Assembly (NCBI GenBank): GCA_030145015.1
Contig: JAQYWI010000155.1
Span: 1 to 13,130 of the forward strand
DNA length: 13,130 nt
Direction: 5' to 3'
Origin: Desulfobacterales bacterium
GTDB lineage: Bacteria; Desulfobacterota; Desulfobacteria; Desulfobacterales; JAHEIW01
Shown here: positions 4,501-13,099 of the stretch, piece after piece
How positions within the stretch are numbered: the stretch's first letter is position 1
Layout of the letters: each line of letters opens with the position of its first letter
The notes under the pieces: generated by a model
Told to the model about the DNA's origin: nothing
Databases searched by the model: none
The model's input: the letters and a program-made list of their open reading frames with translations, nothing else
Translations under genes and position numbers: made by a program

Positions 4501-5007
4501 TTATTGCTGCTTTGCGGCAGCATCGTTTAACAATGCCTCGAGCTGTGTTTTTTTGGGCATTGCGCCGACGGCCTTGACCTCGCCGTTGATGACCAGAGCC
4601 GGTGTGCCTGTTACGCCGTAATTTCCGATTTCGGCCGGATCGGTCACATGCTCGATGTCGGCTGCAAGATTCATTTCAGTCATCACCGCCATCAGATCCT
4701 GTTCCAGGTCGTCACAACAGGGACAACCACTGCCCAGGACCTTGATTTCCAGCCCTTCTATTTGGTCTTGTTCATAAGGCTGCCCGACAATTTTTTTAAA
4801 TTCCCGTAAAAAAGCCCGTCCGTAATCTTTTTGGCTCTTCTCAGGTATGTAATTAAATTTAGCCAGCCGCCGAATCAGTTCTGCGCTCACCGCATTATCC
4901 GACCTGCCGTCAAACTCCCGGGAAACTTCCGCCAGAACATGCTTCAATCCAATAATGCCCATGCGGTGACGCCCAACTTTAATCTGAGTTATTTCATCTT
5001 CAGTCAT
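4501..5007 (-). CDS. Two-domain thioredoxin-like protein (CPCC) of an arsenic operon
   Basis: 168 residues. The C-terminal half (about 86-165) is a small thioredoxin/glutaredoxin-like domain of the type annotated as redox-active disulfide protein (TM0996/MTH895-like). It has the active-site motif GSGCPCCDDL with C95, C97 and C98, and the cis-proline loop TGTPALVI with P136. The first 85 residues form a separate domain with no function I can assign, marked by GIIGLKHVL and YGRAFLREFKK. A Gly-x-x-x-YG-x-AFLREFK pattern is familiar from small proteins of anaerobes, but I cannot name it. The domain is probably cytoplasmic, since no signal peptide is seen. It is the first gene of an operon with acr3, so a role in arsenic redox or hand-over to the permease is likely but unproven. 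AGGTCG precedes the ATG. Confidence 0.85.
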   Translation of the reverse strand: MTEDEITQIKVGRHRMGIIGLKHVLAEVSREFDGRSDNAVSAELIRRLAKFNYIPEKSQKDYGRAFLREFKKIVGQPYEQDQIEGLEIKVLGSGCPCCDDLEQDLMAVMTEMNLAADIEHVTDPAEIGNYGVTGTPALVINGEVKAVGAMPKKTQLEALLNDAAAKQQ

Positions 5008-5042
5008 AATAATTCGACCTGCTTTATTTAATCATTTAGGAG

Positions 5043-5070
5043 GTTATAATAGTGACCCTAAGGGTGTCAA
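5043..5070 (-). promoter_or_regulatory. Promoter and operator of the arsenic operon
   Basis: On the minus strand TTGACA (complement of 5065-5070) and TATAAC (complement of 5043-5048) are 16 bp apart. The transcript would start near 5036, giving a leader of about 30 nt. The spacer holds the palindrome ACCCT-A-AGGGT (5055-5065). A dyad between -35 and -10 is where a repressor such as ArsR commonly sits. The regulator is not encoded in the window. Confidence 0.65.
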
Positions 5071-5210
5071 AATAAATATACTCTAAACTATATCAAAATT
5101 AGCAGTTCATTTTGGAAGGCAGGGAAAAAGAGTTCCAAAGGTGCTCTAAAGTTAGAAGTGCCTAAATTGCCTAAAATGATCTAAAATGCCTAAAGTTGAG
5201 GAATTCTACC

Positions 5211-5266
5211 CTTCGAGAGCCTCCCTTCGAGAGCCTCCCTTCGAGAGCCTCCCTTCGAGAGCCTCA
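5211..5266. repeat. 14-bp tandem array, 4 units (copy A)
   Basis: CTTCGAGAGCCTCC is repeated head to tail at 5211, 5225, 5239 and 5253; the last unit ends CCTCA. The corresponding array in copy B has five units, the first divergent. Confidence 0.9.
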
Positions 5267-5303
5267 GGGTCTAACGACAGGGTCTAACGACAGGGTCGAA
5301 CGA
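5265..5303. repeat. 13-bp tandem array, 3 units (copy A)
   Basis: CAGGGTCTAACGA at 5265 and 5278, then the variant CAGGGTCGAACGA at 5291. It directly follows, and overlaps by two bases, the 14-bp array. The same three units, with the same variant last, are in copy B. Confidence 0.9.
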
Positions 5304-5341
5304 TCATCTATCAAAGGATGGTGAAGAAGCTGCGCAAATTT

Positions 5342-5415
5342 GTATCGAGAACAAGTACGAGGACGACGACGAGAACGATGCATATGGAATCGTAAATCGT
5401 ACTCGTCCTCGATAC
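5342..5415. repeat. Long inverted repeat closing copy A
   Basis: The arms 5342-5360 and 5397-5415 pair over 19 bp with two mismatches (core ATCGAG..AC.AGTAC against GTACTCGTCCTCGAT). The loop is about 36 nt and purine-rich (GAGGACGACGACGAGAACGA). The equivalent arms in copy B are 12836-12850 and 12893-12907. Confidence 0.75.
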
Positions 5416-5461
5416 CAAAAATAGGATTTGCACCTTTTAAGGAAGGAGGATGTCCACTAAC

Positions 5462-5486
5462 AGTTTGGCCGATTCTCGGCCAAACT
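5462..5486 (-). terminator. Strong stem-loop at the end of the liv-ligase operon
   Basis: AGTTTGGCCGA (5462-5472) and TCGGCCAAACT (5476-5486) form a perfect 11-bp stem with a 3-nt loop, touching the ligase stop codon. On the minus strand no T-run follows, so it may not be a classical intrinsic terminator. It could instead protect the mRNA 3' end or work with Rho. Confidence 0.5.
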
Positions 5487-7132
5487 TACCGGGTTTCTTT
5501 CCTGCGTTGTTCCTCGCTGCGGATTTCGCGTCGAAGCAGTTTGCCGACTTTGGACTTGGGCAGCATGTCCCTGAACTCGATATACTGGGGTATTTTATAG
5601 GCGACGAGGCTCTCACGACACCACTTGATCAACTCGTAACCGGTGATTCCTTTAATGTCTTCTCTAAGCACCACATAGGCCTTGATGCGCTCGCCCACCT
5701 TTTCATCCGGAACGCCAACAACGCAGGCGCCGATAACCGCCGGATGTTCCTGCAGCACCGATTCGATTTCAGAGGCCGATACCCGATAGCCCTTGTGTTT
5801 AATTGTATCAACGGTGCGGTCCACAAAATACAGGTTGCCGTCTGCATCCATGGACATGATGTCGGCGGTGCGGTACCATTTGGCGCCGTCTATTTCGATG
5901 AATGATTCGGCGGTTTCTTCGGGCTTGTTCCAATAATAGGTCACCATATAATCAGAGGAAACCAGCAACTCTCCCGGTTCTCCGGCTTCCACCGGTTCAA
6001 GTGTTGCCAAGTCCACGATTTTAATTTTTTTGGTCGCCATGATGCGCCCCACACTTTTGGGTGGGTACTCAACTCCAACCGGGCACATGGAAACCCCGCC
6101 GCAGGTTTCGGTGGCTCCGTATCCCTGCAGAATTTTTTTGCCGAATTTCTGCTCCCAGCGTTTTCCGACTTCAACCGGCAGCAAGTCGCCGGCACTGAAC
6201 CAGTATTCCACCGAGCCCAGGTCATACTGATCGAGGCGATCATGTTCTAAAATCATGCGGTACAGGGTGGGAACACCGATCATGGTTTTGGCCTTAAAGC
6301 GCTGTATGGCCTCCAGGGCTGCATCCAGGTTGATTTTGGGCTGCAGAATCAGGGTCCCGCCCACCAAAAGGGTTGCCAGACCGCAGGTCTGCCCCAGAAT
6401 GTGAAACAGGGGCGCATTTCCCAAAATCACATTTTTTTCAGGCGGAAACAGGGATTCGCTGATGGTAATCTGTTCCCGGGCTGAAACCCGGAAAAGGTTA
6501 TGGGTAAAAGGGACCCCTTTGGGGAATTTGGTGGTGCCGCCGGTGTAAAGAATTTCGGCAATTTCATTTCCATCTGATTCGATCACCGGCTGCTTTTGTG
6601 GTGATTTACGGTATTGGGCCAGCAATTTGCGAAAGGAAGAGGTGTTTTCGTCTAAGGCTATTTTACCCCGGGGGATGACATCAAACAGGTAGCCAAAACC
6701 GCGTTTCCACCACGGCAGCAAATCAGCCATTTTGGTCACGATCACCTTTTTGAGCTGCGTTTCCGTCAGCACGCTGGTGACATAGCCAAAATTGGTGTCG
6801 GCACATACAATCGCCTCGGCGCCACTGTCGTTGGCGATATACTTGAGATCATGGGGGGTGTAAATGGGCGTGATGGGAACGCATATGCCGCCGATTTTTT
6901 GAATTCCCAGCCAGGCCGCCACCCACTGGATACTGTTGGGAATATAAATGATGATTTTCTGACCGGCTGTGAGGCCCATATCCGTTAATGCAGCGGCAAA
7001 CCGACCGGCCATGTCCTCCAGTTCCTGATAGGAAAAGCAGGTGCCCAGGTAAACCACAGCCGTATTATGTTTGCAGCGTTCGGCGGTGTTTGCAAAGGTT
7101 GAATAAATGCTGTTTTCAGGACGTTTTTCCAT
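5486..7132 (-). CDS. AMP-dependent acyl-CoA synthetase / ligase
   Basis: A 548-residue class I adenylate-forming enzyme, full length for fatty- or aromatic-acid CoA ligases. It activates a carboxylic acid with ATP to the acyl-AMP and then to the CoA thioester. Visible motifs: the A3 phosphate loop YTGGTTKFPKG (about 196-206), the A5 motif GYGATETCG (about 337-345), A7 WYRTADI (about 419-425), A8 DRTVDTIKHKGYRVSASEIE (about 438-457), and the catalytic lysine in PKSKVGKLLRRE (about K531). Oddities are K-F for the usual G-x in A3 and TAD for the usual TGD in A7. It is the last gene of the liv operon, so its substrate is probably what the transporter imports. The ATG at 7132 was chosen; a TTG at 7144 overlapping the livF stop is possible, and neither has a strong ribosome binding site. 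Exact substrate unknown. Confidence 0.9.
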   Translation of the reverse strand: MEKRPENSIYSTFANTAERCKHNTAVVYLGTCFSYQELEDMAGRFAAALTDMGLTAGQKIIIYIPNSIQWVAAWLGIQKIGGICVPITPIYTPHDLKYIANDSGAEAIVCADTNFGYVTSVLTETQLKKVIVTKMADLLPWWKRGFGYLFDVIPRGKIALDENTSSFRKLLAQYRKSPQKQPVIESDGNEIAEILYTGGTTKFPKGVPFTHNLFRVSAREQITISESLFPPEKNVILGNAPLFHILGQTCGLATLLVGGTLILQPKINLDAALEAIQRFKAKTMIGVPTLYRMILEHDRLDQYDLGSVEYWFSAGDLLPVEVGKRWEQKFGKKILQGYGATETCGGVSMCPVGVEYPPKSVGRIMATKKIKIVDLATLEPVEAGEPGELLVSSDYMVTYYWNKPEETAESFIEIDGAKWYRTADIMSMDADGNLYFVDRTVDTIKHKGYRVSASEIESVLQEHPAVIGACVVGVPDEKVGERIKAYVVLREDIKGITGYELIKWCRESLVAYKIPQYIEFRDMLPKSKVGKLLRREIRSEEQRRKETR

Positions 7133-7140
7133 GGGCAGTA

Positions 7141-7887
7141 TCAAATTCCAAAATAGGCGGCTTTGACTTCGGGGTTATCCATCAGTTCGGTGCCGGTGCC
7201 CGATAACGCCAGCATACCGTTTTCAATCACATATCCTCTGTCAATAAACGGCAGTATCGGCCGCGCAAATTGTTCGGTGATCAAAATGGTAATGCCCGAA
7301 TCTTTTTTAAAATTTTTGATGGCGTTCACCAGCGTGGTCTGCATCATGGGGCTGAGCCCCAGCAGCGGTTCATCCAGCAGCAGCAAGGTCGGTTTTAGGA
7401 TCAGGGTCATTCCGATTGCCAGCATTTGCTGCTCGCCGCCGCTTAAAAAGCCGGCCTTGCGTTGTTTTAAATTCACGAGTGCAGGGAAAAGGGAATAAAC
7501 ATAGTCCATGCGATCCTTTAAAGCTGATTTTTTAACCTGATGGCCGGCGATCTTTAAATTTTCAACCACGTCGCTTTCAGGGAAAATGGGGTGCCGCTCT
7601 CTGGATAGAACCAGCCCTTTCTTTACGCGATCAAAGGGCTCTGTTGCGGTGATGTCTTCACCTTTATATATAATTTCTCCGTATATGGTGATTCTTTCCC
7701 CGCCTTTGCGCTGTTCCTTGATTTGCATATCGATGATAAGGCCCGATATGGTGTTCATCAGGGTGGTTTTGCCGGCGCTGTTCGAGCCGATAACCCCGAT
7801 AATTTCTCCCTGATCGACCTTCATCGAAAAATCATTCAACGCCAGGGCGTTTTCAAAGAAAACCATCAGATTCTTAACTTCCAGCAT
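7141..7887 (-). CDS. livF: Branched-chain amino-acid-type ABC transporter ATPase LivF
   Basis: A 248-residue ATPase of the LivF type that powers import through LivH/LivM. The nucleotide-binding motifs are Walker A GSNSAGKT (34-41), ABC signature LSGGEQQ (148-154), and Walker B LLLLDEP (168-174). Gln206 in ITEQFA stands at the switch position, as is usual for LivF. Walker A reads GSNSAGKT instead of the common GPNGAGKT or GRNGAGKT but keeps GKT. A short charged insertion (about 52-66) follows the P-loop helix. AAGGAT precedes the ATG at a good distance. An unusually long gap of about 190 bp separates it from livG upstream. The ligase gene follows within about 10 bp. Confidence 0.95.
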   Translation of the reverse strand: MLEVKNLMVFFENALALNDFSMKVDQGEIIGVIGSNSAGKTTLMNTISGLIIDMQIKEQRKGGERITIYGEIIYKGEDITATEPFDRVKKGLVLSRERHPIFPESDVVENLKIAGHQVKKSALKDRMDYVYSLFPALVNLKQRKAGFLSGGEQQMLAIGMTLILKPTLLLLDEPLLGLSPMMQTTLVNAIKNFKKDSGITILITEQFARPILPFIDRGYVIENGMLALSGTGTELMDNPEVKAAYFGI

Positions 7888-7941
7888 TCTTAAATCCTTG
7901 TTTAGAGCATTTGAGAATTCGAATTTATGATTTTGAATTTG

Positions 7942-7961
7942 CCCTTCGACTCGGCTCAGGG
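7942..7961. repeat. Isolated CCCTTCGA...CTCAGGG dispersed motif
   Basis: CCCTTCGACTCGGCTCAGGG lies in the livG-livF gap. It has the form CCCTTCGA-n-CTCAGGG that recurs in intergenic DNA of many bacteria (from memory, not checked). The ends of the 14-bp arrays in the two large repeats read CCCTTCGAGAGCCTCAGGG, the same pattern. The rest of the gap (7888-8081) is AT-rich with TTTCGAA-like words and holds no gene. Confidence 0.65.
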
Positions 7962-8081
7962 TGGTAAGCCGGCCGAACCATTTCGAGTTTCGAACTTCGT
8001 ATTTCGGATTTTAAAGCGGTTCCAGATTTAATGTAGTTTCAGCATAAAAATTTACAAAAACATAAGAACTTTATAATTAGG

Positions 8082-8831
8082 TTACTCACTACCCAGATAC
8101 GCATTTTTTACTTCTTGGCTGTCCATGACAGTTGCCGCCTGACCGTCGGCAATTTTTTGCCCAAAGTTGAGTGCAATTATGCGATCGGCAATTCTGAAAA
8201 GCTCCTTTAAACGGTGCTCGATCATGATGATGGTTTTTCCCTGTTGACGCAGTTTTTCAATGATGGGAACAATACTGGCGACTTCAGCCAGACTCAAACC
8301 GGAGAAGAGCTCATCCAGGATAATCAAATCCGGCTGCAGGGCAATTGCCTTAGCGAGTTCCAGGCGTTTCAAATATCCCTGGGGCAGTACGCTGGCCACT
8401 TTGTAGGCCACAAAAGCGTCACGCTCAAATCCGACCTCTTCCAATAAGTCAAGGGCCACCGCATTGCGATCACCATATTTCCCGCCGACGATTTTTTTAA
8501 CCCGGGGCGAATACAACGGAATGATCATATTCTTATAGGCCGGAAGCTGGTAAAACGGTTTTACCATCTGGAAGGTTCGGGCAATTCCCTGCCGAACAAT
8601 TTTATGAGGCGGCCAGCCGGTTATATCTTTTCCACGATAACGGATCCCCCCTCTGGTCGGTTTCACAAAGCCGGTAATCAGATTGACCGCTGTGGTTTTT
8701 CCTGAGCCGTTGGGTCCGATCATTCCCAGAAGTTCACCTTCGGCAATCTCAAAATTCAAATCATCGATGGCCTGCACGCCGCCGAAATTTTTATAGATTC
8801 CCGAAACTGTTAGCAGGGGAGAAGGGCTCAT
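8082..8831 (-). CDS. livG: Branched-chain amino-acid-type ABC transporter ATPase LivG
   Basis: A 249-residue ATPase partner of LivF. Motifs: Walker A GPNGSGKT (39-46), the LivG-typical ARTFQ after the Q-loop region (about 84-88), Walker B LIILDE (about 169-174), and switch histidine His206 in MIEHRL. The ABC signature is unusual: LPQGYLKRLELAKA (149-162) where LSYGxQRRLEIARA is common. This is a known kind of variation in LivG-like proteins, so activity is still expected. The start was placed at 8831 because GGAGGTCGATTG lies immediately before that ATG. The ATG at 8849 would put this ribosome binding site inside the gene. The start overlaps the livM stop by one base (TGATG), indicating translational coupling. 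The C-terminus NAYLGSE is typical of the family. Confidence 0.95.
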   Translation of the reverse strand: MSPSPLLTVSGIYKNFGGVQAIDDLNFEIAEGELLGMIGPNGSGKTTAVNLITGFVKPTRGGIRYRGKDITGWPPHKIVRQGIARTFQMVKPFYQLPAYKNMIIPLYSPRVKKIVGGKYGDRNAVALDLLEEVGFERDAFVAYKVASVLPQGYLKRLELAKAIALQPDLIILDELFSGLSLAEVASIVPIIEKLRQQGKTIIMIEHRLKELFRIADRIIALNFGQKIADGQAATVMDSQEVKNAYLGSE

Positions 8832-9865
8832 CAATCGACCTCCACCCATCTTTCAAATTGATGGTATTTGCGCTGAATATAGTGAAAAATGCCCTCCGGC
8901 ACGGCGACGGTAAATACGACCAGGAACAGGCCGTAAAAAACGATTCGGAGCCCGCCGATACCGCGTAATATTTCTGAAAGCGGCACCAGAATAAAGGCGC
9001 CGAGCATCGCGCCGGCCAATGTTCCCATACCGCCGACCACTGCCGCAGCAATCGGCAGAATGGAATAATCCAGCGCGTATACCGGCATGCCCACAAACAT
9101 ATAAACATGGGTCACAAAAGCGCCTGCAAAGGCACCGATAGCAGCAGCGATAAACAGGGCCTGGGTTTTAAACCAGTAAATATTGATACCGGCATTCATG
9201 ACCGAACGGTCGTTATCATTGATTGCCTTGAGCACCAGGCCGTAATCTGAATTCATCAGGCGTCGGAAGCCAAACAGGGCCGCCAGCAGGACGGCTATAA
9301 TGAGATAAATCTCCACCCATCTGTTCGGCAGGGGGTCCAATCCGCTGAGGCCTTCGGTGCCCCCAAAAATCCGTGTGGCCTCAATGATTCGGACCAGCAT
9401 CAGCGGCAGCACCAGGGTGACCATTGAAAAATAAATTCCGCGCAAGCGTAAAACAGGCACAAGGAACAGCGTACAAAACAGCCCTCCGAAAATAGTTGCC
9501 AGCGGAAGGGTTATATAGGGGGGCCAACCCAAATAGTGATTCATATTTCCGGCAAGGTAGGCACCGGTTCCGAAGAAGAGTGCCTGGCCCAGGGAGACCA
9601 TGCCGCTCTGGGCCAGGATATCCCAGCTGATTGCAAGCAAGGCAAAAACAGATACGGAAAGTAAAACGCGCTGCCAGTAGTGACTGAGAACGATTGACAG
9701 TAATAATAAGCCCACAATGGGCAGCAGCCGTGGGGCGGATAAATAAAGCATTTCCCGCCAGGAGGACAGGGCAAATACATCACTGGATCTGGCTTTTATG
9801 CCTCTGTCTATTCGTTCTTTGCGCTTTTTCTTTGAACCACTTGAATTTAATTCCGCATTCCCCAT
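8831..9865 (-). CDS. livM: Branched-chain amino-acid-type ABC transporter permease LivM
   Basis: A 344-residue multi-spanning inner-membrane permease of the LivM type, pairing with LivH. The family signature SGMVSLGQALFFGTGAYLAG is present, followed by hydrophobic helices and the cytoplasmic EAA-like loop region ALKAINDNDRSVMNAGIN. The first 35-40 residues from this start are polar and basic (KKKRKERIDR) and not typical of LivM. The start is uncertain: the frame runs back to 9922, overlapping livH. The ATG at 9865 leaves 22 bases after the livH stop and has a GGCGGAA-like sequence upstream. The ATG at 9751, just before MLYLSAPRLLP, would give a classical LivM N-terminus. The DNA at 9841-9880 looks like intergenic repeat sequence that has become coding. 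Confidence 0.9.
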   Translation of the reverse strand: MGNAELNSSGSKKKRKERIDRGIKARSSDVFALSSWREMLYLSAPRLLPIVGLLLLSIVLSHYWQRVLLSVSVFALLAISWDILAQSGMVSLGQALFFGTGAYLAGNMNHYLGWPPYITLPLATIFGGLFCTLFLVPVLRLRGIYFSMVTLVLPLMLVRIIEATRIFGGTEGLSGLDPLPNRWVEIYLIIAVLLAALFGFRRLMNSDYGLVLKAINDNDRSVMNAGINIYWFKTQALFIAAAIGAFAGAFVTHVYMFVGMPVYALDYSILPIAAAVVGGMGTLAGAMLGAFILVPLSEILRGIGGLRIVFYGLFLVVFTVAVPEGIFHYIQRKYHQFERWVEVD

Positions 9866-9877
9866 TCTAAATTCCGC
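9849..9877. repeat. Short direct repeat at the livH-livM junction
   Basis: AATTCCGC occurs at 9849-9856 and 9870-9877, 21 bp apart, with CATTCCCCATT between. On the minus strand this reads GCGGAATT..GAATGGGGAAT..GCGGAATT, a low-complexity word type typical of intergenic filler. Here it overlaps the possible livM start. Confidence 0.55.
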
Positions 9878-9887
9878 CTTCTTTCCT

Positions 9888-10760
9888 CTATATCCTTTCT
9901 TCCAGTTCCTTTTGTTCCCCAAACAAGCCGGACGGTCTGATAACCAGTATCACCAGGATGGCAATCAGCGGCACCAGCATTACCCAGTGGCTTTCCAGAT
10001 ATGTAACCGTGAAGGTCTGCCCATATCCAATTAAAAAGGAGGCCAGCACAAGCCCTCCGGTGGATCCCAGCCCGCCAACAATACATACGGCCAAGGCATT
10101 GATAAGGACGCTGTATCCCTGTTCTACATTTATGGTACCCAGGGGTAAGATAACAATGGCGGCAACTGCCGCATAAGCCGCACCAAAGGAAACACTGAGC
10201 ATAGCGATGCGGTCGGTATTGATGCCCAGGCTGAGTGCCGTGCGCTCATCCTGGGCGATTCCTCTAAAGCGCAGACCGGTACGGGTGTGGTGGGTGAAAA
10301 ACCAGATAAAGGCGGCCATGGCGATGCCAATTAGCACGATGAAAACACGCTGCATATCGATAACCACCTCACCGATGTCAATGCTGGTGTCAATAAAAAC
10401 CGGCAGAGAATATTCAAAGCCGATAAAACCCATATATTTAAAAAGTTCCAGCAAAGCCAGGCCGATGCCGAAAGTGGCGATAACCTCTGATAACACCAAC
10501 CCTCGAATTCGCAGCAGAACAAATCGATACATCAGAGCCCCGGCCACGGCGGTTAAGGCAACCGCTAAAACAACTGTAACTAAATAAGGCAGGCCGATAG
10601 AATTAAAAAAGACCCAGCATACTAATGCACCCATAATATATAGTGCACCGTAGGCAAAGTTTGCGACTCCACTGATACCGAAGGTGAGGTTAAAGCCCAG
10701 GGCCACTAAAACCAGTATGATGCTGTTTACAAAACCGTAGACTAAGGTATGGGCTAGCAT
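9888..10760 (-). CDS. livH: Branched-chain amino-acid-type ABC transporter permease LivH
   Basis: A 290-residue inner-membrane permease of the LivH type, the usual length, with about eight hydrophobic segments. N-terminal LVALGFNLTFGISGVANFAYGALYIMG is the family hallmark (cut here as LVALGFNLTFGI, then SGVANFAYGALYIMG). The cytoplasmic coupling loop GLRFRGIAQDERTALSLGIN contains the EAA-like element contacting the ATPases. GGLGSTGGLVLASFLIGYGQ near the C-terminus is also typical. The ATG at 10760 has no recognisable ribosome binding site (ATTATTACCC precedes it), which is odd in an operon where the others are clear. It is separated from livJ by about 215 bp containing a terminator, so livHMGF transcription depends on read-through or an unseen promoter. 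Confidence 0.95.
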   Translation of the reverse strand: MLAHTLVYGFVNSIILVLVALGFNLTFGISGVANFAYGALYIMGALVCWVFFNSIGLPYLVTVVLAVALTAVAGALMYRFVLLRIRGLVLSEVIATFGIGLALLELFKYMGFIGFEYSLPVFIDTSIDIGEVVIDMQRVFIVLIGIAMAAFIWFFTHHTRTGLRFRGIAQDERTALSLGINTDRIAMLSVSFGAAYAAVAAIVILPLGTINVEQGYSVLINALAVCIVGGLGSTGGLVLASFLIGYGQTFTVTYLESHWVMLVPLIAILVILVIRPSGLFGEQKELEERI

Positions 10761-10885
10761 GGGTAATAATAATTTAGCGTTAGTTTAAATCCTGTGGATT
10801 TGTAAAAACAATTGGATGTAGCTCGGAGACACCGACTCATGGCTGCAATGGTAATTTAATTGATACACACTTGGTCTGAGTCCAG

Positions 10886-10924
10886 AAAAACCCGCCCGCC
10901 TTACCTGAGATAGCCAAGGCGGGC
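10886..10924 (-). terminator. Intrinsic terminator between livJ and livH
   Basis: On the minus strand GCCCGCCTT (complement of 10916-10924) and AAGGCGGGC (complement of 10894-10902) form a perfect 9-bp GC-rich stem with a 13-nt loop. GGGTTTTTC follows. It lies about 50 bases after the livJ stop. Partial read-through would give more binding protein than membrane components. Confidence 0.85.
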
Positions 10925-10976
10925 AGTTAGGATTGCCGATTTTTTGTGTTTTGCTTCGGCCTTAATTAGAATATCC

Positions 10977-12248
10977 TTATCTTTTGACCCACGGCGGCAG
11001 GACGATTGGACCGTCAGCCAGGGCTTTAGGATATACCATTTTTCTTTTGCCGTCTTCCGTCCATTGGAAAAATGCCCCAACTGCGGTTTGCGCTGGATCG
11101 CTGCCGTAAACGACCTGATGCCCCTCATCAAACTTGATCCGGCCCATTACGCCCTGCCGGTCGGTTTTTTCAACTTCTGCCACAATGGCGTCCGGATCGA
11201 GAGAGCCGGCACGTTCGATTGCTTCTTTCAGGATATACACCGATTCATAAGAGGGTGCCGGTCCGTGACCCGACTGAATACCCTTCCCGTAAGCTTTTTT
11301 ATAATTATTGTAGAAGTTTAAGGACGGAGCGTATTTTGCTGCAGGTACGTTACCCAACTCAAAGGTGGCATTCAACAGCCCACCGATTTTGCCTTTAAAG
11401 GTTTTCCAGGCGACTTCACCCGCCATCGGTGAGATAAATCCGGCGATGAGCCCCGGTACCTTGATGCTTTTCCACTGTTTAACAAGGACACCGCTTTCAG
11501 GCATATCAAAACAGGCAAATATTACCCCGGCTTTCTTTGCTTTGGCTTTCATTAAGGCCGAAGAGAAGTCGGAAAAACCGGTGGGAAATTGGTCATGGCC
11601 CAACACTTCATAACCTAAAGCCGGATAAACCTTTTTCGCCATTGCCCCTGCGGTACCCCGCGCCCAGGCAACATCCTGGTTCATGATGTAAACCTTGTCA
11701 AAACCAAATTCTTTTTTTAGCGTTGCCATTGTACCGCCCAAAAGTTTGGCCCAGTAAATCACATTCATGGAAACCCTGAATACATATTTGTATTTTTCAG
11801 GATCTTTTTTGATTCTATCCTCCGTGCCGGGGCTCATTGCGATGGTGCCCAGCATCGGCATCTTGTACTTGGAAAAAATATCCATGCCCGCGAGCAAGGC
11901 CTCGGAGCGGAAAGGGCCGACCACAATGGCTGTCGGCTTTTTCTCTAAGATAAGTTTTTCCAATCCCAATAAGGCTTCCGGAACCGGGACACCGGCAGCT
12001 GCATCGCGTAGATCGGCAGCGACCACCTTAAATGGCCGCTTGGTGCCCCCAACATTGACACCTCCTTTGTTGTTAATCTCACTAACTGCCAATTGAACCG
12101 CTTTATGAGATTCCTTGCCTTCCAAAGAACCTAAAGAAGTGGGGACGCCGATGACGATCGGTTCAGCGGCAAATACAGAAGGCGCGGGTGTCGCCCAGAT
12201 GAATGCAAAGACCAACATAAAAGTGAATACGCATATTTTCCGATTCAT
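10977..12248 (-). CDS. livJ: Periplasmic substrate-binding protein of a branched-chain-type ABC transporter (LivJ/LivK-like)
   Basis: A 423-residue type I periplasmic binding protein (Peripla_BP_6 type). It begins with a Sec signal peptide: basic MNRK, a hydrophobic core and a likely signal peptidase I site at VFA-AEP, near residue 27. No lipobox is seen. The mature protein starts IVIGVPTSLG and contains AVQLAVSEINNKGG, IVVGPFRSE and, late, YESVYILKEAIERAGSLD, all usual in the family. It binds the solute in the periplasm and delivers it to LivHM. The pairing with a CoA ligase suggests an organic acid rather than leucine or isoleucine, but the ligand cannot be read from the sequence. A strong AAGGAGG lies before the ATG. 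It is the first gene of the operon and is followed by an intrinsic terminator. Confidence 0.93.
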   Translation of the reverse strand: MNRKICVFTFMLVFAFIWATPAPSVFAAEPIVIGVPTSLGSLEGKESHKAVQLAVSEINNKGGVNVGGTKRPFKVVAADLRDAAAGVPVPEALLGLEKLILEKKPTAIVVGPFRSEALLAGMDIFSKYKMPMLGTIAMSPGTEDRIKKDPEKYKYVFRVSMNVIYWAKLLGGTMATLKKEFGFDKVYIMNQDVAWARGTAGAMAKKVYPALGYEVLGHDQFPTGFSDFSSALMKAKAKKAGVIFACFDMPESGVLVKQWKSIKVPGLIAGFISPMAGEVAWKTFKGKIGGLLNATFELGNVPAAKYAPSLNFYNNYKKAYGKGIQSGHGPAPSYESVYILKEAIERAGSLDPDAIVAEVEKTDRQGVMGRIKFDEGHQVVYGSDPAQTAVGAFFQWTEDGKRKMVYPKALADGPIVLPPWVKR

Positions 12249-12273
12249 AGGTTTCCTCCTTTTTAATCAGCTC

Positions 12274-12292
12274 TTCCCGGAAAAACCGGGAA
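12274..12292 (-). promoter_or_regulatory. Hairpin in the livJ leader
   Basis: TTCCCGG (12274-12280) and CCGGGAA (12286-12292) pair perfectly around a 5-nt homopolymer loop, just upstream of the livJ ribosome binding site. It may stabilise the mRNA 5' end or affect translation. No classical promoter was found between here and 12570. Confidence 0.45.
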
Positions 12293-12570
12293 AAATCAAG
12301 TTAAAGGGTTTATTTGAATCTTTTGTTCGTGGGGTAGCGCCGCTCCGAGTCTGCATTAGAATGCTCAACAGGCGGCTTTTTGATCTTGAGAGAGCGGCCC
12401 TTTTCCGGGGAATTTGGAAATAGAGCCCGACGATCATCGATTACGAATTTAAAATTTGTAAATTTCAAGCAGTGTCTATGTTACCAAGTGGTAGCTATCT
12501 GAACCATTTCGGGATGTCAAGGAATTTGTGTTTTGAACGAAATAATTTGCGCGCCTTTCTATAACCAATC
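12293..12570. other. livJ upstream region without a recognised gene
   Basis: This should contain the liv operon promoter on the minus strand, but I see neither a good -35/-10 pair nor a sigma54 GG..GC site. The AT-rich words around 12430-12470 (GAATTTAAAATTTGTAAATTTC-like) are partly palindromic. No protein or RNA gene was recognised. Confidence 0.4.
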
Positions 12571-12688
12571 TCAAAATTAGCAGTTCCTCTTGGGGGACAG
12601 AGAAAAAAAGTTCCCAAGGTGCTCTAAAGTTAGAAATGCCTAAAATGCCTAAAATGATCTAAAGTGCCTAAAGTTGAGGAATTCTACC

Positions 12689-12758
12689 TGTCGAGAACCT
12701 CCCTTCGAGAGCCTCCCTTCGAGAGCCTCCCTTCGAGAGCCTCCCTTCGAGAGCCTCA
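12689..12758. repeat. 14-bp tandem array, 5 units (copy B)
   Basis: A divergent first unit (TGTCGAGAACCTCC) is followed by CTTCGAGAGCCTCC at 12703, 12717, 12731 and 12745, the last ending CCTCA. Copy A has four units. Confidence 0.9.
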
Positions 12759-12795
12759 GGGTCTAACGACAGGGTCTAACGACAGGGTCGAACGA
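12757..12795. repeat. 13-bp tandem array, 3 units (copy B)
   Basis: CAGGGTCTAACGA at 12757 and 12770 and the variant CAGGGTCGAACGA at 12783, exactly as in copy A. Confidence 0.9.
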
Positions 12796-13048
12796 TCATC
12801 TATCAGAGGATGGTGAAAGAAGCTGTGCAAAATTGTCTCGAGAACGAGTACGAGGACGACGACAAGGACGATGCTCATGGAATCGTAAATCCTACTCGTC
12901 CTCGATAACCAAAAATAGGATTTGCACCATTTAAAAAGACGGAGCGCGAGCAAAACCATAATTTTAGGCATTTTAGATCATTTTTAATTTTAGCTCATTT
13001 GTGGTTGTAAGCACTTTATATAGGTTTAAAACCGTACCATCGGGTGTT

Positions 13049-13067
13049 AATCCGCCTGAGGCGGATT
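13049..13067. repeat. Perfect 8-bp stem palindrome
   Basis: AATCCGCC (13049-13056), TGA, GGCGGATT (13060-13067). No T-run follows on either strand, so it is not a standard terminator. It resembles the short TCCGCC..GGCGGA palindromes scattered in many bacterial genomes. Confidence 0.6.
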
Positions 13068-13099
13068 GAGATAGGTTCTAGTATCTTATCGAATGTTAA

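Follow-up and report, generated by a model that had tools for sequence, protein, structure and literature searches.

Palindromic repeats flanking a liv-ligase operon in Desulfobacterales as probable ORF-less members of a mobile family with a four-helix protein

The stretch analysed here is 13,130 nucleotides of a Desulfobacterales genome (assembly GCA_030145015.1, contig JAQYWI010000155.1; hereafter the window), in which two composite repeats, copy A and copy B, lie in direct orientation on either side of a liv-ligase operon, with the modules that the original prediction, made from the sequence alone, had described. Both repeats belong to a family of palindromes whose arms are built of 9-10 bp units, AGTGNCTAA, and we consider it probable (about 0.7) that they are non-autonomous members, lacking an open reading frame (ORF), of a mobile family whose ORF-bearing form encodes a four-helix protein. 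The complete element appears to comprise two inverted arms, each a tandem series of short degenerate units, on either side of an asymmetric core, which in many genomes reads GTTRAGGAATTCTRYC ... AGCGNAGCGA; the four-helix ORF is absent from both window copies.

To assess the distribution of the family, genome contigs were scanned with the pattern TGCCTAAARTTRAGGAATTCTRYC, and at least 119 matching stretches were obtained from at least 25 genomes (told apart by accession prefix). Exact matches occurred in 21 of 194 genomes of the order to which a close relative (CSMAG_771, G001) belongs, at up to 27 per genome, against none of the same 194 for the reversed control pattern, and no match was found in viral contigs; BLAST of copy A against plasmid and phage sequences likewise gave no match. 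In G001, 96 BLAST pieces of copy B fell at about 40 places when grouped by hand, a lower bound because 40 of 183 first-look candidates were scored. The suspicion that the pair represents a dispersed intergenic family with many copies in relatives, rather than a local duplication, was thus borne out. Among the matches listed, to which the counts of cores, arms, and right-armed copies below also apply, all 119 titles were of Desulfobacterota/Deltaproteobacteria type, so that TGCCTAAA strings, tentatively placed in this phylum by the original prediction, do occur there; in the window, TGCCTAAA is present seven times against 0.74 expected, a count reached by none of 200 shuffles. By crude ORF calls, 4 of 125 cores fell within ORFs of at least 100 aa, compared with 1881 of 2380 random positions. 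The cores lay between tandem (66), convergent (20), or divergent (8) genes or at contig edges (27), and were scarce between divergent genes relative to random intergenic positions (237, 60, 116, and 86, respectively). In 81 of 124 copies, the left arm stopped all three reading frames (on average 2.51 frames, vs. 2.03 when shuffled). Hairpins adjoining the arms were genome-specific: all 11 right-armed copies in RPGP (G059) and JAFDFV (G060) had the CGCCGAAGGCG type, other genomes had AGCGNAGCG or further types, and a CGCC...GGCG hairpin was also present at both ORF-bearing copies in G059.

The ORF-bearing form was recognised from genes of the PF05635 family, for which a search gave matches in all eight genomes and in none of 14 control genomes. 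Fifty PF05635 loci were scanned (30 as returned and 20 picked partly for subclade), and seven distinct sites, from five genomes, had window-family arms on both sides of the ORF: two each in G001 and G059 and one each in G020, G061, and G063. These copies contain a single ORF of ∼117 aa encoding a four-helix S23/IVP protein (PF05635, TIGR02436), and the three arm-flanked ORFs that were scanned matched TIGR02436 or PF05635. An AF2 structural model consisted of four helices (pLDDT 96.6) and was matched by Foldseek to 2rld of the S23 family (TM score 0.82-0.88, E about 1e-5), to 2gsc (Xcc0516; 0.70-0.82, E 0.0015-0.012), and to the Avd proteins 4dwl/8ub7 of diversity-generating retroelements (DGR; 0.67-0.71, E 0.05-0.09); phmmer recovered 2rld at 3.4e-20, and at least 7991 homologues were obtained (7991 of 7998 candidates scored). 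The S23p of Xanthomonas is described as a pentamer in the available sections of one report (PMC4990558). Phylogenetic analysis of 46 PF05635 domains placed the seven proteins with AGTGNCTAA arms in one exclusive clade (support 100/100) and three proteins with ATCGAAC arms in another (100/99); the clade of plasmid genes with TAATTCG arms also includes genes with other arms.

Three ORF-bearing sites, L236 and L200 in G059 and L232 in G001, were compared with the corresponding gene junctions in relatives, and clean empty sites were found for L236 and L232 and a near-empty one for L200. At L236, the junction in G069 lacks the element to about the nearest base, with flanks 89-91% identical; G065, G067, G071, and G074 have empty junctions of 10-17 bp, G066 retains a right-arm remnant, and G029 has both ends around other contents (the locus is split over contigs in G060 and partial in G073). 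At L232, the flanking genes meet at stop/start in the empty G002 and G006, an ORF-less copy is present in G003 and the same copy, internally deleted, in G004, and an ATCGAAC-type element occupies the junction in G025. At L200, G064 has only 33 bp, G069 has an ORF-less copy, and G067 and G029 have other arm-flanked ORFs (GxxExxY by sequence reading); an ATCGAAC element at this locus is also missing in G064, where 81 bp are left. The gene upstream of L232 ends in identical residues with or without the element, and that upstream of L236 has a short extra tail encoded by the arm. As far as sequence comparison goes, these data establish that the element is dispersed and sits in gene junctions, neither gene being lost in the cases read; that one and the same junction can be empty or occupied by a copy with or without the ORF; and that arm family and protein clade are inherited together. 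From these patterns we infer that the element moved into the junctions rather than being precisely lost elsewhere.

The association of PF05635 genes with inverted, periodic flanks extended to other phyla. The L200 protein matched 35 plasmids by tblastn, and 15 of these were fetched (Cyanobacteria, Chloroflexota, Bacteroidota, Spirochaetota, and Bacillota); all 15 PF05635 genes exceeded the shuffle maximum for inverted flanks, 13 of them by ≥4, compared with 27 of 371 control ORFs (6 by ≥4; from Desulfobacterota loci, 400 drawn) and one of 25 neighbouring coding sequences (none by ≥4; from 10 of the 15 plasmids). Scored at lags 5-11, a periodic flank was present at 14 of the 15 plasmid genes and both flanks were periodic at 10, all 24 periodic flanks having period 7. 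For the Desulfobacterota PF05635 genes, the corresponding counts were 23 and 12 of 29, with period 7 in 22 flanks, 9 in seven, 8 in three, 6 in two, and 10 in one; for PF13366 genes they were 10 and 0 of 30, with period 9 in six flanks, 8 in three, and 6 in one; and none of 28 Y1_Tnp loci was periodic. Selection of ORFs with a hidden Markov model from three arm-flanked proteins gave inverted arms in 29 of 34 Desulfobacterota PF05635 rows (one site counted twice); an automated run gave 16 of 27 testable loci among 30 for PF05635, 16 of 26 for Y1_Tnp, the inverted flanks of which were single REP-type repeats by reading, and 21 of 30 for PF13366.

Several side observations concern these genes and other arm-flanked ORFs. 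Several of the 15 plasmid four-helix genes (L252-L266) adjoin defence genes, including DISARM, cas1/cas2, type I restriction-modification, and DUF1156/Swt1. ORFs of the PF13366 (PD-(D/E)XK) family are often bracketed by inverted arms whose units are 8-9 bp long, for example ACCACAGAG or CACGAAG (L285, L287, L290-L319), and two arm-flanked ORFs that by eye are of this kind occupy a junction holding a four-helix element in a relative. At L368 (G029:C75:37340-38160), a DUF559 endonuclease-like ORF with arms of GTTCACA/GTTCACG units is nested in the remains of a window-family element; DUF559 was rejected as a further general partner, its seven matches in four of eight genomes being mostly in very long frames.

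A number of results weigh against a mobile family served by the four-helix protein. At the level of the ORF, the cores of ORF-bearing copies read GGTATTC or TGTATTC or are lost, and those of ORF-less copies read GGAATTC, which speaks against a simple parent-derivative relationship; a regular-expression search for the four-helix ORF in the 119 pattern loci listed returned none; and we know of no enzymatic or catalytic activity for the PF05635 fold, which counts against movement by the protein. A right arm was detected in 63 of 106 testable copies among the matches listed, and for these 63 elements the arms were less alike within an element (22.95) than between elements of the same genome (23.96, sd 0.35), with 4999 of 5000 permutations equal to or above the own-arm value, which does not favour strict conservation of the stem; a first strict test on 14 complete elements had found own arms no more alike than others (p 0.45). 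Own arms may be less alike because long perfect palindromes are unstable. At the sites compared, no target-site duplication was visible at the ORF-bearing elements, L236 in G059 has a short ORF-less palindrome ahead of the ORF and then a further right arm, and the places of the two window copies in G002 are free of the repeats but hold other sequence and are not clean empty sites. Empty and filled sites, as sequence states, do not by themselves tell gain from precise loss. Finally, control ORFs from the same element-rich loci had a periodic flank in 12 of 54 cases (both flanks in 4), and the Desulfobacterota arm counts depend on the method, the automated test failing to separate PF05635 from Y1_Tnp.

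Within the window, the features of both copies were delimited as listed in Table 1. The original prediction had the copies right and their extents too short: the left ends lie at 5081 and 12559, and copy B runs ∼150 bp further, to 13081. Its long inverted repeat exists, as a separate hairpin of 6-bp units, CGAGNA by reading, within the larger palindrome, and the module order that it proposed holds in A and B; in G001, arrays or hairpin can occur singly, with arrays but no hairpin at L122 and L124 (the place of L010), a hairpin without arrays at L121, and both at L120, the hairpins at L120 and L121 being CGAGNA-like.

Table 1. Features of the two composite repeats and of the flanking genes in the window.
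Feature	Coordinates	Strand	Basis
Copy A of composite repeat, right arm missing	5081..5440	+	sequence comparison
Copy B of composite repeat, both arms present	12559..13081	+	
Copy A, degenerate outer MITE-like end CTCTAAACTATATCAAAA	5081..5098	+	
Copy B, outer MITE left end CTATAACCAATCTCAAAA	12559..12576	+	
Copy B, outer MITE right end GAGATAGGTTCTAG, inverted	13068..13081	+	
Copy A, left palindrome arm (CTAAA units) and core TTGAGGAATTCTACC at 5196-5210	5146..5210	+	
Copy B, left palindrome arm (CTAAA units) and core at 12674-12688	12624..12688	+	
Copy B, right-hand core GACGGAGCGCGAGC... with right arm TTTTAGGCATTTTAGATCATTT... at 12958-13000, the arm being complementary to the left arm of copy B	12933..13000	+	
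Copy A, 14-bp array CCCTTCGAGAGCCT	5209..5265	+	TRF
Copy B, 14-bp array	12691..12757	+	TRF
Copy A, 13-bp array CAGGGTCTAACGA	5265..5303	+	TRF
Copy B, 13-bp array	12757..12795	+	TRF
Copy A, inner hairpin of 6-bp CGAGNA units, bounded by GCAAA and TTTGCAC	5333..5434	+	
Copy B, inner hairpin of 6-bp CGAGNA units	12826..12928	+	
Thioredoxin-like flanking gene (PF13192), syntenic in G002 and G004	4501..5007	-	
liv-ligase operon, repeat-free synteny in G002	5486..12248	-	

The 14-bp array has 4.1 and 4.8 units and the 13-bp array 3.0 and 3.0 units in copies A and B, respectively (TRF); the arrays run head-to-tail without the unique spacers of a CRISPR array, and the original prediction, too, had seen no match to CRISPR. 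Identity between A and B was 105/116 in the left part, 93/93 in the arrays, and 126/137 in the remainder; the arrays (5209-5303 and 12703-12795) are thus identical and the parts outside them 8-10% different, which would reflect either recent conversion or constraint on the arrays. The inverted match score was 28 between the arms of copy B, compared with a best score of 9 in the next 160 nt for copy A; predicted RNA folding gave z = -6.1 for copy B (12559-13084), with the arms paired, and z = -3.4 for copy A. No Rfam family reached its gathering score anywhere in the window.

Copy B is clearly nested in a second, outer element with the properties of a miniature inverted-repeat transposable element (MITE), namely terminal inverted repeats and, in G001-G004, high copy number; copy A retains just a degenerate left end of it. 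At ≤2 mismatches, G001-G004 contain 125, 102, 102, and 87 occurrences, respectively, of the outer end motif TAGAASYTATCTCAAAA, against 2-4 of its reversed control, and eight of 24 MITE end pairs in fetched loci enclosed the palindrome core (306-526 bp, all in G001); of the core-free pairs, 15 measured 80-295 bp and the last 552 bp. Some copies of the window lineage lie within a TAGAASYTATCTCAAAA-ended MITE, having gained extra arrays and the hairpin of 6-bp units. The flanks of the end pairs had no clear target-site duplication (a TA duplication would fall inside the searched pattern), and an insertion point of the palindrome was sought in "empty" MITE copies and not found, their interiors being too diverse. 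The palindrome core at L133 runs opposite to the outer ends, as though the segment between the arms had been turned around. Both ends of copy B and the abundance of the motif would suit an ordinary MITE, in which a DDE transposase acting on the TAGAASYTATCTCAAAA ends placed the copies, with palindrome, arrays, and hairpin as passive cargo. We regard this as somewhat unlikely, because G059 and G063 are rich in the palindrome family with the end motif at control level (5 vs. 4 and 1 vs. 4, respectively), and because the ORF-bearing elements with empty sites have no such ends; the last move of A and B may nevertheless have used them. It is unlikely, too, that hairpins of some other origin merely capture small ORFs (PF05635, PF13366, DUF559), none of which moves the element. 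The PF13366 loci above the shuffle maximum, the nested DUF559 ORF in G029, and the inability of the automated test to part PF05635 from Y1_Tnp loci speak for such capture; against it, arm family tracks PF05635 clade for the AGTGNCTAA and ATCGAAC arms, with the TAATTCG genes as the exception, and period 7 dominates the PF05635 flanks outside the window family, compared with 8-9 for PF13366.

A host function, with the element acting as a terminator or as a hairpin for RNA processing or mRNA stability under selection at gene ends, is improbable. It would fit the intergenic placement, the scarcity between divergent genes, the frame-stopping left arms, and the stable fold of copy B; selection against harmful insertions accounts equally for the placement, however, and the family is patchy within its order and missing at orthologous junctions where further relatives carry other unit families. 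Least credible, in our judgement, is the proposal that the direct repeats mark or duplicate the liv-ligase operon, as the original prediction had raised, or form a composite transposon with it. The two direct copies are 7.5 kb apart and their arrays are identical, yet G002 has the same neighbourhood, in which the liv-ligase operon is syntenic along with the thioredoxin and ACR3-type (arsenic-type) genes (pieces at 68-86% identity), and no repeat motif in the 19.5 kb compared apart from one isolated CTAAAGT; the repeats therefore do not mark the operon. In place of copy B, G002 carries a different sequence of 153 bp, bounded by the shared flank and by an inverted motif common to both genomes, and in place of copy A an additional gene of 480 aa that is missing in the window. 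Given ∼40 copies in 3.1 Mb, as in G001, 0.19 neighbours are expected within 7.5 kb of a copy, and a pair spaced like A and B is thus unremarkable. The extra gene lies beside the thioredoxin gene in both G002 and G004 (480 and about 460 aa, permease-like by reading; L170, L171) and is absent from the window (5007-5486) where copy A is without a right arm, which a deletion with one end in copy A may explain.

Among known systems, the intervening sequences (IVS) of 23S rRNA resemble the ORF-bearing relatives, and these only, in having a PF05635-type ORF between terminal inverted repeats. Available sections of PMC4990558 describe the Coxiella IVS as having 28-bp inverted ends, an S23p ORF, and, next to that ORF, a variable number of tandem heptamers, and cite earlier suggestions that mobile elements left IVS behind as remnants. 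Unlike the elements here, which occur between protein genes in many mostly ORF-less copies, an IVS sits in 23S rRNA and is excised from the RNA by RNase III; the window copies and the three compared sites all lie between protein genes. The repetitive extragenic palindromes and bacterial interspersed mosaic elements (REP/BIME) served by REP-associated tyrosine transposases (RAYT) are likewise many short intergenic palindromes with few gene-bearing copies, but the elements here hold a different protein and no Y1 transposase. In the same genomes, the Y1_Tnp (PF01797) loci have inverted repeats without tandem units; RAYT was rejected as the partner, as none of 30 fetched Y1_Tnp loci has window-family arms. 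MITEs are also short, non-coding, and dispersed, with inverted ends, and copy B has an outer one, but the palindrome family differs in its ORF-bearing relative without a known transposase, its tandem-unit arms, and the lack of a visible target duplication. The Avd protein of DGRs has the same four-helix fold.

The heptamer repeats (STRR, TAACTGA, and GGGAATC) resemble the arms in that they also form arrays of 7-bp units in intergenic DNA, the cyanobacterial STRR being heptanucleotide repeats. According to the available sections of the respective reports, TAACTGA repeats stop all three frames in forward orientation and have no evident transfer mechanism (PMC4679880), and the GGGAATC heptamers of Xanthomonas and Nostoc generally have no tie to mobile elements but form 70 and 75 close convergent (inverted) pairs in two Xanthomonas genomes (PMC4692102); both leave the mode of spread open. 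The terms "S23" and "four helix" are absent from the main texts of these two papers, the available sections of PMC5524665 merely list two four-helix genes, and no paper joining heptamers with four-helix genes was found in the open-access literature.

With respect to mechanism, we hypothesise that movement of the element depends on the four-helix protein, which would recognise the hairpin formed by the arms, in DNA or RNA, and help to copy or insert the element, ORF-less copies using it in trans. The Avd-like fold is the sole hint of reverse transcription, for which host repair or a nuclease may stand in; with its stop codons, the left arm would allow an element to land behind a gene without harm. 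More tentatively, PF05635 proteins may be the trans-acting factor of an undescribed, bacteria-wide mobile class with arms of ∼7-bp units, often carrying stops and harmless in junctions, of which the orphan heptamers (STRR, TAACTGA, and GGGAATC) would be ORF-less remains and the 23S IVS an rRNA-settled form, and with which the PF13366 and DUF559 nuclease ORFs would share their architecture. Similar elements elsewhere hint at an undescribed route by which short bacterial repeats spread. The structure of an S23/IVP protein has been public since 2006 (2gsc) without a function, and heptamers have been catalogued without a spreading route; a link between heptamers and four-helix proteins makes both testable and might account for some of the repeats between genes in Desulfobacterota, Cyanobacteria, and other groups.

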